This document shows positions 2,987 through 10,680 of a stretch of DNA of 26,410 nt, one piece after another. Position numbers and translations under genes: made by a program. The notes below the pieces were generated by a model. It saw only the letters and a list, made by a program, of their open reading frames with translations, was not told where the DNA came from and did not search any database. The stretch lies in assembly GCA_025201365.1 (NCBI GenBank), contig JAIXMF010000179.1:1-26410 (forward strand). The letters are read 5' to 3'. How positions within the stretch are numbered: position 1 is the first letter of the stretch; the number at the start of each line of letters is the position of its first letter. Source of the stretch: Syncephalis plumigaleata (lineage: Eukaryota > Zoopagomycota > Zoopagomycetes > Zoopagales > Piptocephalidaceae).

Positions 2987-5183
2987 ATGACAGAAACGAC
3001 AGAAACGATAACAACAGAAACGAATGTAAACAATTCACGCGAACAAAGTGCAAACTCGCTTGATGGACTATCGAATGAGACTGACCAGTCAACGGTTCAA
3101 AATACTACTGCCACTACACTACTATCAGCTGGTTATGTAGCAGGCGAGAAGGAGTACGCATCGGTATCTACCGCGATATGTGCACCTATTCTGCCATTAC
3201 AAGGAACGGATGTGGTACGTGCTCGAACATTCTCCATAGGTTCCATTCGATCTGGTGCTAATAGTCGACGTGGCTCCACCACTGATGCGCCCATTCATTT
3301 GGTAACCCTTAAGGGGACACAGCATAATAGAGCTAATATCGATGGATTATACAACGGTCGTGATACTGGTCTGAAAACAAGAGAAAGCGGCAATGATGAC
3401 ATTGATGATGAAGTGATGGATACGCCTTTAATGGGGAAATCACGTCGTAGACTGAGTGAGCCCGCACCACTTGATTCCGATCACGAGAGTTGTTGCAATG
3501 AAGTGATCGCCCTAAGAAGATCATCCGATAGTGAGGTACGCGACGATGATGGTTGCACCGATGAAGATGGCGTAATGGCACGACAACATCGTGTTCGATC
3601 ACGTCTCGAGGAAAGTAATCGTAATAAGCGACGCTTACAACGTGTTATGATATTGTGTTTCGCATTCTTCTTGATTGAAATTGTCGGTGGTCTCATTGCA
3701 GGTTCACTTGCCTTGATGAGCGATGCTTTCCATTTACTATCAGGTAAGTGATTGCTATTGCTCGAATGCCAGTTACTCATTTATGATGTAGATATTGCAG
3801 GATTTGCTATCTCACTGTTTGCCATTCATGTTGCACAGCGTCCTGCATCTAAACGTAAGTGATCCACTCAACTGGCCTAGTGTGATAGAATGGAAATGTC
3901 ATTGTCAATCGGATGACCACATCATTGATGTTATCCATCATCTATTATAGGCTATTCCTTTGGCTATCATAGAGCAGAAATTGTTGGTGTACTCATTTCC
4001 GTATTCTTTCTATGGTTTCTTACCTTAATGCTCGTCATTAATGCAATTGATCGACTACAAAATCCACAACCTATTAATAGTTTGACGATGCTATTCATTG
4101 CAATTATTGGACTATTAGTAAATCTAATGTAAGTGACAAGAGATACAATCCAAAATTGTTGTATTAACAATAGGTATATACGTTACAGTATGGCATTTGC
4201 CTTAGGACATGAACATCATGGATTCCATAGTCATGGTCATAGTCATAATCATCATCACCATCATCATCATGATCATAGTCATTCAAGTAAACATGAGCAT
4301 GGTAAAGTATGTATGGTATACGGTTTATCTATTAGCATAGATACTAATCTATCTATTAGATGAATATCAATATTAGAGCAGCATGGTTGCATGCAATAGG
4401 TGATATGCTTTCATCGCTAGGTGTGGTAGTCTCATCTATTTGGATCTACCTTCATCCTGAGCACACATTCATCGATCCCATTTGTACACTTTTCTTTTCA
4501 ATCATTGTCATGTTCACTACAGTAGGCATTACTCGTGAATCAATTCACGTATTAATGGAAGGTAAGCAGCAGCAGCAGTAATAAGAATGATAAACATGAA
4601 TTAACTATGTTGTATCTACACCTGCACCAATGCAATAATAGCCGTACCTCATGACATTGATCTAGAACAAGTGGAGCAGTCATTATTGGCCATTAGTGGT
4701 GTTCAAGGTGTTCATAACCTACATGGTAGGTAGTTATGTAGCGTATATCGTTCTAATAGCATCTAACACAATCATTCCCATTTAGTATGGAGTTTGACCG
4801 CGGATAAGGTAGTTATACAAATTGGCAAATAGCCATTGGTCATGTCGTCACAATTAACTCATCCGCCTATTTACTAGATTGCATTAATGGCCCATTTGGA
4901 AGTGGCTACAAATGATGTTGCATCCGATGCACGCACCTTAAAGGAAGCACGGCAACAACTTGATAGTAAATATCACATTCGACATGTTACATTACAAATC
5001 GAACATCGTCCGACAAGTTCATCCAGTGCTAATGATATTAATCATGATATGGAGATGGAAGAGCAAGATGATAAAAAGTTCGACGGTCATGATCATCAAA
5101 TCGAATCCAAGGGAAGAGTGGCGAATGTAACGACAAGATGTCGATCAGCTTCCTGGCTTCACGTCAACCAGCTGCCAGTATAA
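2987..5183 (+). CDS. Zinc transporter, cation diffusion facilitator (CDF/ZnT) family
   Basis: Exons 2987-3743, 3792-3854, 3951-4128, 4189-4306, 4360-4561, 4642-4725, 4786-4808 and 4878-5183 join to 576 aa. The family exchanges Zn2+ for H+ across vacuolar, ER/Golgi or plasma membranes to remove cytosolic zinc. Residues 1-215 are a long Ser/Thr/acidic cytosolic N-terminus. TM1 starts near 220. TM2 carries SDAFHLLSD, whose HxxxD (H249, D253), with the second HxxxD in TM5 (H383, D387, in WLHAIGDML), makes the four-ligand zinc site; His at both HxxxD sites points to zinc rather than Mn. TM3 has the signature YSFGYHRAEIVGVL. The TM4-TM5 loop (exon 4) is a long His-rich zinc loop. After TM6 comes the cytosolic domain (VPHDIDLEQVE ... 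VWSLTADKIALMAHLEV). The best-known relatives are vacuolar Zrc1/Cot1 and ZnT1. Exon 7 is only 23 nt. The family call is nearly certain; the organelle is not visible. Confidence 0.95.
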
Positions 5184-5424: not shown

Positions 5425-7424
5425 ATGTCTACACCGGAACTCGAGGCATTGCGACAGCGTGCACTTGCACAAAAGTCTGACATTGCTCGTATTTATGCCA
5501 CGCTTAAGAAAGGTTACATGCCCAGTTATGATCAACTAGATCAGTTATGTGCCGGTATTGAAGGTAGCCGACTACTGAATGAGATAACACCACAGCTATC
5601 GCATGTAGGCCAGTCACTACTAAGGTCTATCAAGGAATTACTGATTAATACGCGTAACTATGTTGGACAAACTGGACATCATGTCAAGTGGCGGGAGGTA
5701 TTTACGATGAATCAACAGGACAATCAATTGGCTCATAGTAAGCTTGTCATTTCTATTGTGTATTAAAGACACTAATTCATTGTTGTGCACATTGATCGAC
5801 TATCAGTCAATGAAGCTTACCTGGATAGAAATAGATATGTCAATATCAATCGAGAAACTGATGCCACATGGCAACGCCTAGTTAATATTGTTGGTCTGTT
5901 GCTCAATTCTCATCATTTCTGCAATCTACTGGGAAATGCACATTCTATACTACACGATATTATATGGCTCAATGAAAGCAATAACGGTGATATAGGCAAT
6001 TCAGCAGGCAAGAATGCGGCACATGCGAGTGGTAAGCGAATACACACTAATGATAAGCAGCTGGATATGTGTAATAATTACATAGCTACCTGAACTAGAG
6101 AGCAAAATCACGTTCTCCGAGAAACAACGTATAAAACTCTGTTCGCATTTTAGATCATTCCTGGATGAGCTTCAGAATCACCAGAGTTACCGCAATGGTT
6201 TGATCGATATAGTTGAACTTACATCAAATATTAGCAGTTGGCAAGAATACAAAGACTATATTGCAAGCGACAGCGAAGAGGATGCTTCAACGACTCAAAT
6301 GGAGTATTATCAATTGTATCAATTATTGGAGAATCAAACGGATAGGAAATCGTTGAAACAACTACTTGATAGCGTATATTGCCTACGGAATCGGATTATA
6401 GAGGACAAGAAAGCACTGAAATATTGCCAACAACTAAGTGCATTTATTCTGAAAGCATTGAAAGAACCAGACTATATACTATCCGATTCCGGTGCTTATC
6501 AGTATGACGTGCTTGCCTGCCAATGTCATAGCAGTCTTATGGCTCGACACAATCAGCAAGTGCAGGAGGTCGATGAAGCAGCTCGTCAGTTTATTTACGC
6601 ATTGTTAAGGAACGAATTAGACGAGAGATTACGCGAGAATATAGATACGATTATCCAGACCGCCTTACTGGATAACGATGGTCGTCCTATTATCAAATTG
6701 GATTTATTACGTGATATATTCGCCCTAGTGCATCGATCGGTAACACGACTACAATTCCTACCATTGCCCGATATCGAGACGGAGGCGAAGGAAGCGTATG
6801 TCTCCTTGCGAAATATCGTTCTACAATGTCCTCGCGTGTTGCCCGAGCAATTCACCATTCGTACCATGACTCGTTTTGACATGGAAAATGAAGATCAACC
6901 GCTGCGTAACTCGTTAAAAATTGTCATTACAAAGATAAAGGGTGAGGCACACGATATCGCGTTTAAATATCGACAAAAAACGTTTCCCTACATCAAGCAT
7001 GAAGGACTAGTATCGGCAAGTATGGTACGCGGTCATGGAATGCGAGTGAAACTTTTACTCACTACACCATTGCCTACCGACAAGGAGAAGAAGGTTAAAG
7101 TAAGCGTGATTTCCGTGGATATTAGTTACTTAAAATTGAGGTTTAAAAACACCAAGTATGAGTATGTTAACATCACAGCATTAGGTAACACTTTTATTCA
7201 TTTCATTAACACATAACATGTCTAGTATTCTACATCGTATGGTAGAACCGATCATTAATGTCATTGCAAGTAAAATGGTGGGCAAGCTAATAGCTAATAA
7301 CATTCGACAATGGATGAGTGTTGCCGACGAACGATTAAACTCGATTGATACACTAAGCGACACGCTATGTCGGTATAAACTAGCTGAAAACTATAAGGAG
7401 CCTAGGATGAATGAGAACACATGA
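5425..7424 (+). CDS. HAM1-like protein (hyphal-anastomosis family)
   Basis: Exons 5425-5737, 5807-6031, 6099-7161 and 7226-7424 join in frame to 599 aa. The N-terminal motif [11 protein letters not shown], the helical '[18 protein letters not shown]' stretch and the later segment [18 protein letters not shown] followed by [11 protein letters not shown] resemble the N- and C-terminal domains of fungal HAM1-like proteins, named for a Neurospora gene needed for hyphal fusion; the biochemical role is poorly known. The protein is helix-rich with no signal peptide or clear membrane segment. The third intron uses GTATGT at 7162 and the acceptor before 7226; this restores the frame and keeps the hydrophobic C-terminal helix. 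The stop overlaps a truncated RPL35 copy, so the native C-terminus may have been replaced at a breakpoint near 7405-7424. The family is called from recognised motifs, without an alignment. Confidence 0.62.
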
Positions 7425-8641: not shown

Positions 8642-8648
8642 TATAAAT
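8642..8648 (+). promoter_or_regulatory. TATA box of the secreted microexon gene
   Basis: TATAAAT lies 140 bases before the ATG at 8782. A long C/T-rich tract (about 8670-8765) follows, typical of the start-site region of strongly expressed fungal genes. The ATG has the favourable context ACATCAACATG. Confidence 0.5.
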
Positions 8649-8781: not shown

Positions 8782-9538
8782 ATGAAGTTCTCTGCCGTTA
8801 TCGCTATTGCCGTCGCCATTGTCGCTGTCGCCAGTCTGGTCGCCGTTGAAGCTAGTCCCGTCCTGGAACGTCGTGGTATGTCTGGCCGTGACCCTATCAA
8901 TTGATGTACTAATCATAGCCTATTGTTTCATTGTCCACCGATGATTACCGATAGCTCGTAAGTTCATGTATATCAAATTGTTGTTTTGACGTGCTAATCA
9001 CACTACAATGTTTATTCTACCTATTAATTTGTTAGCACAACTTCGTAAGCTATCCTATTAATCATAGCAAGTACTATGCTAATCGTAACATAAATCAAAA
9101 TCATGTGTGAATGCGTTTTATAAAATGGAGTAAGTTATCGTTATGGCTGTAATGAATGAGGTACTAATGATAATATGACACATGATCCATGTCTGCTTGT
9201 ATACGATAGGACGTAAGTTAACATTCTCATTGCAATATATGAGACGCTAATCACAGTATGACGCATGATCCACGTATGTTTGTATACGATAGAGTGTAAG
9301 TTACCATTCTGACCATAATGTATGGCACGCTAATTACAACGTGGCGTGTAATTCTATGTTCCTGTATGGCAGCTTGTAAGTTATCATTCCAATCGTCATT
9401 TACGACGTGCTAATCACAAATCGATATACATTAATCGAATGATAGGAAGATTAAGCAGTAAGTAATAATCCACAATAACAATCATTCTCACACTGATCCA
9501 TTATGATTACAGAGCAAGACAAGGACATCATCAAGTAG
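8782..9538 (+). CDS. Secreted small protein built from microexons (MEG-like)
   Basis: Exon 1 (8782-8875) encodes MKFSAVIAIAVAIVAVASLV then AVEA-SPVLERR: a signal peptide with likely cleavage after VEA, then a dibasic RR suited to Kex2-type processing. Its codons (GCC, GTC, AAG) suggest high expression. After donor GTATGT at 8876, candidate microexons lie between good acceptor and donor pairs: 8955-8957 (CTC), 9036-9044 (CACAACTTC), 9210-9212 (GAC), 9293-9295 (AGT), 9373-9375 (CTT) and 9446-9457 (12 nt). The last exon is 9513-9538, reading (x)QDKDIIK and TAG. Each microexon length is a multiple of 3 and sits in phase 1, so any can be skipped without shifting frame. Full inclusion reads APQLRQS and then a junction TGA; leaving out the AGT and CTT exons reads on to QDKDIIK. 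No family is recognised. Exon 1 is well supported; use of the 3-nt exons is inferred from splice sites only. Confidence 0.55.
8876..9457 (+). repeat. Tandem array of ~80-85 bp intron units
   Basis: Eight donors (GTATG at 8876; GTAAG at 8958, 9045, 9130, 9213, 9296, 9376, 9458) and seven CTAAT branch-like sites (8909, 8994, 9079, 9164, 9247, 9330, 9410) recur with strict spacing; the CTAAT intervals are 85, 85, 85, 83, 83 and 80. Adjacent units are related by sequence: 9181-9209 and 9264-9292 match at 26 of 29 positions, including the acceptor GTATACGATAG. The array looks like serial tandem duplication of an intron plus microexon unit. Confidence 0.8.
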
Positions 9539-10680
9539 ATATTATAGGTATTCAAGTCAAGAATGGATTGGTACTACAAGACCCTCATTTAGTGTCCATG
9601 CCATTCAAGTCATTATTCCTTGGTACAACAACAACAAGTATATCTACAAGATCATTCAATCATTTATTGAATAAATATGTCATATTCTAAGCATTATAAC
9701 CATTGCTTCATTCTACTTTAGAAATAATGTGCAAGTACTGGTTTAAATGTCAACAATATTGATCACATATTATTTCCATTTTATTCATTGCTAATACAAG
9801 AGACAACATCCGGACAATATGCACTAATCTCCATTCTAAATGGCAATTATTCTGCTATTTCGGCACTTGTTAGAATGAAGCCATCTCTTTATTCCTGATA
9901 TGCTAGTCTGCTATGAATGTAATCATCATTATATCTCGAGTGGATACGCATATATCACGTGACATTATTTGTTTACATCTTGAAACACCGTCGACGCGTA
10001 TTTTCCAACAGCATATTTAGAGATGCAGCATGACGTGTATGCCGTATCTATTGCAGCATACAAGTAGCATGTATGCTTGGAGAACTCTATTGACATGTAG
10101 CAGATGGTGGCATCTAGAAAACAATGATGCGGAAGCAGATTATAGTTAATGAATGATCAGTCTAGTATAACTGTGTATTTGGCTGTCCTTCCCCATTCAC
10201 TCACTCACTCACTTTCTTTCATTCTTGTGTTTTGTTTACTGTATGCTATTATCGTTGCACATCAGAAAGTTGTATCTGATCTATTTATTCTAATTATTTC
10301 AAAGCATATAGCAAAGCTTGTCTGTTCGCTTTAGTATACACGGCTTACACTTGTGAGCAATAGCAAACTAGCCACTCGACTATTTGTTATTGTTTTGATC
10401 CAGCGCTTTTCTGGTTCAGTTTCCGAACACACTCTAGAGCTTTAGTCTATTACTACATTCCCTCCTTTATTACTACTTGTCGAGCATACTCGTATTATGC
10501 TCGTATTGCCATATTCAATGTAAGTGACAAGCCTGTCTGTGATTTGAAAGCGTATCGTCAAGTGTGTGTGTGTGTGTTTACTGATATGATGCATGATTAT
10601 CCTCTGCTCTTTATTATTGCCGCACCTTGTGGTTCAGCAGTATTCACCAGTCATTTAGTACAACCACTCCGCACTAGATA
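9539..10680. other. Gene-free stretch (3' UTR of microexon gene, upstream region of next gene)
   Basis: An AATAAA at 9670-9675 may serve the microexon gene. Two frames stay open for about 50 codons after 9513, but neither follows the phase of exon 1. There is a (GT)n tract at 10562-10577. No RNA gene or domain-coding frame was found. Confidence 0.45.

Follow-up and report, generated by a model that had tools for sequence, protein, structure and literature searches.

The DNA analysed here, a stretch of 26,410 nt from the fungus Syncephalis plumigaleata (Zoopagales, Zoopagomycota; hereafter the window), contains a locus in which an exon that appears to encode a signal peptide is followed by a row of segments of 3 to 12 nt, each placed between splice sites. 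The locus raises the question of whether such codon-sized segments are exons, and whether a secreted peptide is put together from them. A sequence-only reading had proposed a gene of this kind, similar to the micro-exon genes (MEGs) of schistosomes. In the explanation that we prefer, at a probability of about 0.9, the locus is a member of a large gene family for secreted prepropeptides whose mature parts would be assembled from serial, mostly one-codon microexons, the window copy itself probably being decayed.

Layout of the locus and size of its family

All parts that the sequence-only reading had described are present: a signal-peptide exon, six segments of 3, 9, 3, 3, 3 and 12 nt, each flanked by a YAG acceptor and a GTAAG donor, and a last exon (Table 1). 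The signal peptide of exon 1 was judged by eye and is putative, and the dibasic RR behind it is, we assume, a Kex2-type site. GTATGT stands directly after exon 1 in 40 rows among the paralog matches listed. TATAAAT was found 126-203 nt 5' of the ATG in 37 of the 38 loci that we parsed (see below), and AATAAA lies within 320 nt of the start of the last exon in all 38 (at 9670-9675 in the window copy). Rfam and tRNA searches returned no match within the window. Elsewhere in the window, an ORF with a HAM1_N domain (6200-7213) shares 99% identity, across 85% of its length, with the deposited S. plumigaleata protein BDF22DRAFT_440896.

Table 1. Features of the window copy, with positions counted from the first letter of the window
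Feature	Position	Strand	Remarks
TATA box (TATAAAT)	8642..8648	+	140 nt 5' of ATG
Exon 1, 94 nt	8782..8875	+	MKFSAVIAIAVAIVAVASLVAVEASPVLERR plus one base; putative signal peptide, short pro-part, dibasic RR
Intron 1, 79 nt	8876..8954	+	GTATGT...TAG; donor GTATGT at 8876
Exon 2, 3 nt, CTC	8955..8957	+	3 nt in 31/38 loci, 9 in 5, 2 in 2
Exon 3, 9 nt, CACAACTTC	9036..9044	+	9 nt in 24/38 loci, 3 nt in 11, 12 nt in 3
Exon 4 vestige	9125..9129	+	donor at 9130 present, usable AG acceptor absent
3-nt exon GAC	9210..9212	+	array parse
3-nt exon AGT	9293..9295	+	array parse
3-nt exon CTT	9373..9375	+	array parse
Penultimate exon, 12 nt, GAAGATTAAGCA	9446..9457	+	stop codon here in intact paralogs
Last exon	9513..9700 (end approximate)	+	3' UTR in intact copies; paralog alignment

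Exons 1, 2 and 3 of the window copy together spell APQ, at the place where an intronless relative described below has TPQ. One of the seven introns measures 165 nt, because no usable AG precedes the donor at 9130; the other six have lengths of 55-80 nt. In intact copies, exon 4 is 2 or 5 nt long and establishes phase 0; its acceptor is missing in three loci, namely the window copy, L029 and L030. The claim that all junctions are in phase 1 thus holds for the window copy and fails for intact paralogs, in which this exon shifts the remainder of the array to phase 0. With its exon-4 acceptor missing and an early stop, the window copy is probably a decayed family member and not the exemplar of the design. 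A coding last exon, as obtained by joining everything in phase 1, was rejected: the joined frame of the window copy terminates after APQLRQS, and intact paralogs stop in the penultimate exon or just before it.

We searched the genome from which the window comes (32.6 Mb in 383 contigs). A stretch of 1,121 bases around the locus matches at least 227 places, counted with the best 40 of 277 candidates scored. The matches listed were grouped into 40 loci, the window included, and 38 were kept for parsing. One of the two that were dropped, L050, runs into a contig end; the other, L036 (C193:2500-7300), is an array broken by unrelated T-rich sequence and probably represents a disrupted gene. A family exon-1 peptide (that of L037/L038) matched 150 places when 150 of 169 candidates were scored, a count that takes in haplotype copies as well as the window copy. 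These places were counted on exon 1 alone, and the open frame there spans 44 residues in many and up to 165 in others. By sequence similarity, the locus is a member of a large S. plumigaleata family of putative secreted prepropeptide genes. In the wider of two protein searches, the family alignment A1 found 27 deposited family proteins, of which 17 are named S. plumigaleata. Set against the 150 exon-1 places in the genome, these 17 models suggest that standard annotation misses much of the secreted-peptide repertoire.

L004:1162-1900 (C1:2254722-2257741) is a diverged member with an exon 1 that is also 94 nt long and with few microexons (GTTCTT, GCA, CTC, GAC, GAC); joined by hand from the DNA, its product would end in SSCTRRRCYDD, and its introns look, by eye, unrelated to those of the main family. 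In L060, from about position 3679 on the plus strand, a second signal-peptide-like start is followed by a long G/F-rich tandem-repeat stretch.

Microexon arrays and their reading frame

We parsed the 38 loci by dynamic programming, scoring donors, acceptors and branch points with weights chosen manually once the data had been seen and with all exon lengths of 1-20 nt treated alike. This parse replaced a first one based on regular expressions, which was discarded as it took GTGC and GTACG for donors. The parser returned 774 internal exons, of which 657 are exactly 3 nt long. Each gene carries 6 to 47 internal exons behind its 94-nt exon 1, or 8 to 49 exons in total. The lengths of 731 internal exons are multiples of 3; 41 leave a remainder of 2, mostly the 2- and 5-nt exons, and two leave a remainder of 1. 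The mean intron length is 78 nt, with all residues modulo 3 represented (228/281/303). The donor is GTAAGT in 624 of the 812 introns and a GC donor in four. Among the 563 array introns of 74-85 nt, 488 contain CTAAY, its A lying 42 nt before the exon in 267 of them.

As controls, a nearly identical parser was run on five dinucleotide shuffles of the full set of arrays, which yielded 7-18 exons each (0-3 of them 3 nt long), and on the reverse complement, which yielded five. By these two controls, the microexon arrays are not a product of chance. Exon lengths within one array are not independent, as units arise by duplication; we therefore rejected independence of lengths as a statistical argument and relied instead on the reading frame, the stop codons and a deposited gene model. 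Genome-wide, YAG-N3-GTAAGT occurs 3,791 times and its reversed-pattern control 1,132 times, while YAG-N2-GTAAGT (875; control 1,329) and YAG-N4-GTAAGT (885; control 1,493) occur less often than their controls. The N3 pattern fits 548 of the 657 parsed 3-nt exons, and from this fit and the N3 excess we extrapolated about 3,500 three-nucleotide exons in the genome.

Exon 1 ends in phase 1, and phase 1 persists up to exon 4, after which the arrays run in phase 0. In 33 of 38 loci, the exon at the third internal position measures 2 or 5 nt (in L066 it comes one place later), and every 3-nt exon beyond it makes up a complete codon. Stop codons are absent from all 626 of these exons, against an expectation of 15.9 from positional composition or 43 from intron composition. 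In the concatenated runs, stops make up 2 of 625 codons in frame 0, 5 of 587 in frame +1 and 55 of 587 in frame +2; the scarcity of stops in frame +1 as well counts against our explanation. By our manual reading of the parse, the frame of 31 of the 38 loci stays open until a stop where the array ends. The penultimate exon ends in TAAGCA or TAAGCG in 29 of these 31 intact copies and in TGAGCG in one, and the stop lies in this microexon in 30 of them, at an earlier codon within it in L046, L057 and L060; L039 stops one exon earlier. The seven broken copies comprise the three loci without an exon-4 acceptor, L041 and L044, in which the frame is lost in exon 1, L059, whose exon 4 is 3 nt, and L054, which has a 2-nt exon.

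One deposited model follows an array closely. The exons of the intact copy L049 (C362:258048-262349), which encodes 84 residues across 48 introns, had been predicted before we saw model P0006 (BDF22DRAFT_685685), which lies on a contig of 975,987 bases, as long as C362; joining 41 of the 47 predicted exons, 39 of them 3 nt long, reproduces this model letter for letter. After these 41 exons, P0006 reads through into the last intron and misses the family stop. The model omits six predicted exons, including TGC and GGA. It uses an exon with an AAG acceptor and one with a GTAGGC donor, yet skips some exons with better sites, and this choice of poor sites over better ones suggests that P0006 rests on transcript evidence. 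That the model may not be transcript-based counts against our explanation. P0004 agrees with 8 of 37 exons of L064, skips others and then enters an intron, and it was not reproduced to its end. Among the 27 family proteins, we linked only these two to arrays in the 38 parsed loci, which cover a minority of the loci behind the remaining 25. No protein among those 25 follows any of these arrays beyond one exon, P0014 matching one exon 1 plus one further exon only.

Moreover, an intronless gene adjoins the array gene L047 (L047:1-363, minus strand), and a similar copy adjoins L048 (L048:1-469, minus strand). These genes stand head to head with the array genes on the opposite strand. The intronless gene shares with array genes the promoter region, the signal exon and the 3' end, and between signal exon and 3' end it codes without interruption for RR-TPQ and further residues. 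Its homology reaches to about -155 against L060 and L056, and to about -98 or slightly beyond against many others. As the homology extends into the promoter region, we did not conclude that the gene is a pure retrocopy; it may stem from cDNA-mediated intron loss or represent an ancestral intronless state.

The predicted peptides share further features. RR occupies residues 30-31 in 33 of the 38 predictions, and a C...CC...C pattern occurs in 11 of the 31 intact ones, one similar pair included. APQ follows RR in 8 of the 31 intact predictions, exons 1, 2 and 3 together supplying it there, and in 6 of the 27 family proteins. No Pfam family matched above its curated cut-off in the 10 proteins scanned; the best match, CBM_14 in one of them, had E=0.017 and 15.7 bits against a cut-off of 22.1. 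A PDB search with the predicted peptides gave nothing above threshold. Conotoxin-type prepropeptides have a conserved signal, a dibasic site and a variable, Cys-framed mature peptide, and they form a multigene family with ordinary exon structure. The predicted Syncephalis peptides and their gene family resemble them in all these respects except the exon structure.

These data bear on the possibility that the whole array leaves the transcript as a single long intron, or stepwise by recursive splicing, the short exons being non-coding way-stations whose residues are absent from the final mRNA. The AG..GTAAG sites about 80 nt apart do resemble recursive-splicing points, and exon 1 joined directly to the last exon also yields a short open frame. 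Way-stations would nevertheless sit badly with the absence of stops from the 3-nt exons, the open frame of the 31 intact loci and the recurring cysteine pattern. P0006, in which 41 microexons are joined, and the intronless relative, with continuous codons from signal exon to 3' end, speak against them as well, and we find this possibility scarcely credible. Under our preferred explanation, the conserved 94-nt exon would encode a signal peptide ending at a dibasic cleavage site, and the mature peptide would be assembled from serial microexons separated by introns of about 80 nt with a GTAAGT donor and a CTAAY branch point about 42 nt before a YAG acceptor. To our knowledge, exons of 3 nt are too small to be recognized by exon definition, and the short introns would therefore have to be recognized and removed one by one. 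They are probably spliced out co-transcriptionally, starting from the 5' end, and the upstream exon would lengthen by one codon at a time. Genes that use as many as 48 introns to encode 84 residues, mostly in one-codon exons, test how accurately a spliceosome can deal with dozens of adjoining 3-nt exons.

Evolution and use of the codon-sized units

We compared units, each an intron plus its codon, leaving out pairs of closely similar loci. Where introns are 90-95% identical, codon bases differ by 32% between arrays (n=143 pairs) and by 47% within an array (n=27), the unit pairs not being independent; at 75-80% intron identity, codons are nearly randomized. Between paralogous units, codons thus diverge much faster than introns. 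We also compared similar copies, in ten pairs. Substitutions are rarer at splice sites than in introns (9/1744 vs. 343/13272, p=6e-10); this comparison is biased, the motif search that located the sites having used a single copy per pair. In exons, the deficit relative to introns is not significant (12/707 vs. 343/13272, p=0.18). In the two most diverged pairs, which were picked afterwards, exons have 0/166 changes and introns 162/3429 (p=0.0008). L034 and L035 differ by two exons, as do L040 and L043; as expected, such differences fit units coming and going one residue at a time.

The overall exon rate in similar copies, not significantly reduced, would also fit arrays that are tandem intron repeats in decaying, functionless genes, as would the seven broken copies among the 38, the window copy included, and the interrupted array of L036. 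Such decay is nonetheless very unlikely to account for the family. Most loci (31 of 38) are open, splice-site changes are few even if motif location favours this result, and the two most diverged pairs have changes in introns and none in exons. Furthermore, TATA box and AATAAA are kept in 37 and 38 of the 38 loci, respectively.

For a gene that is in use, the frame-neutrality of each 3-nt exon also allows combinatorial alternative splicing, in which one gene would give many peptides by choice of one-codon exons, as the sequence-only reading proposed. This is compatible with our preferred explanation and concerns the mode of use. The six predicted exons absent from P0006 could reflect such choice; they could equally be alignment errors, in a model that also misses the family stop and enters an intron. 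The splice sites are strong, most donors being GTAAGT, and the documented diversity lies between gene copies, in the 150 exon-1 places, the gain and loss of units and the variability of codons. On balance, we regard combinatorial splicing as doubtful.

Under the one-codon-exon explanation, gain or loss of one intron-plus-codon unit would add or remove one residue without a frameshift, and the arrays point to peptide evolution residue by residue. A wider proposal, to which we give an even chance, is that the codon-sized exon is the unit of protein evolution: modules would be duplicated, lost and exchanged between arrays, and peptides would change residue by residue while keeping their cysteine framework. 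Transcripts may also sample microexons combinatorially. On this view, the order of residues would in effect be put together by the spliceosome one codon at a time, and the peptides would probably serve against host fungi. Syncephalis is mycoparasitic according to a review (PMC10386755), and a role as effectors in the attack on host fungi is suggested by this lifestyle, the predicted secretion and the size of the family.

Relation to known multi-exon secreted-protein genes

According to PMC10526429, schistosome MEGs (35 genes) encode secreted, variable parasite proteins and have 10-20 exons of 6-81 bp (3-81 in its abstract), mostly 15 bp, with introns of 0.1-5 kbp. The claimed likeness to them stands as far as a signal-peptide exon followed by many mostly symmetrical microexons is concerned. 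It does not extend to sizes: microexons here are mostly 3 nt, and introns are short and alike across arrays. The Syncephalis genes also differ in having up to 47 internal exons, 150 matching places and phase 0 after exon 4, and in belonging to a fungus. None of the 27 family proteins, 17 of which carry an organism name, is named as schistosome, in a search that needed shared 5-residue words and similar length, and the likeness is presumably convergent.

Aphid bicycle genes, as described in the accessible text of PMC9168663, have about 17 exons per gene, with almost all internal exons in phase 2. Like the present family, they encode putative effectors and combine many small internal exons, one dominant phase and rapid protein evolution. 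Unlike them, the Syncephalis arrays run in phase 1 to exon 4 and in phase 0 thereafter, and single-codon arrays are not among the features which that text gives for bicycle genes. Isolated 3-nt microexons are also spliced, for example a 3-bp exon in Drosophila homothorax (PMC7392893), which is a single alternative exon and not one of tens in series. The design works like MEGs and bicycle genes, but the sizes and phases that define these are not those found here, and we regard it as a new, extreme form of micro-exon gene for secreted proteins in which the novel element is the one-codon module. Neither serial single-codon exons nor microexon genes of Syncephalis were reported in the literature searched, which left out most subscription journals. 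The sequence-only reading, which knew of no secreted-peptide gene of symmetrical microexons in fungi, is borne out in this respect. Splicing order, intron gain or loss and diversifying selection become testable through the intronless relative, the phase switch at exon 4 and the extrapolated 3-nt exons.

Some deposited proteins point to relatives of the family. P0021-P0023, P0025, P0027 and P0029 (jgi, ena) are exon-1-like peptides with an end that resembles read-through into intron 1, for example RRGTSGHGHIN, and these endings suggest the same exon-1 boundary in relatives. P0024 (jgi), one of the six family proteins with APQ after RR, and P0026 are relatives of 143 residues with a similar signal region and a longer, charged mature part that, by eye, is perhaps helical.
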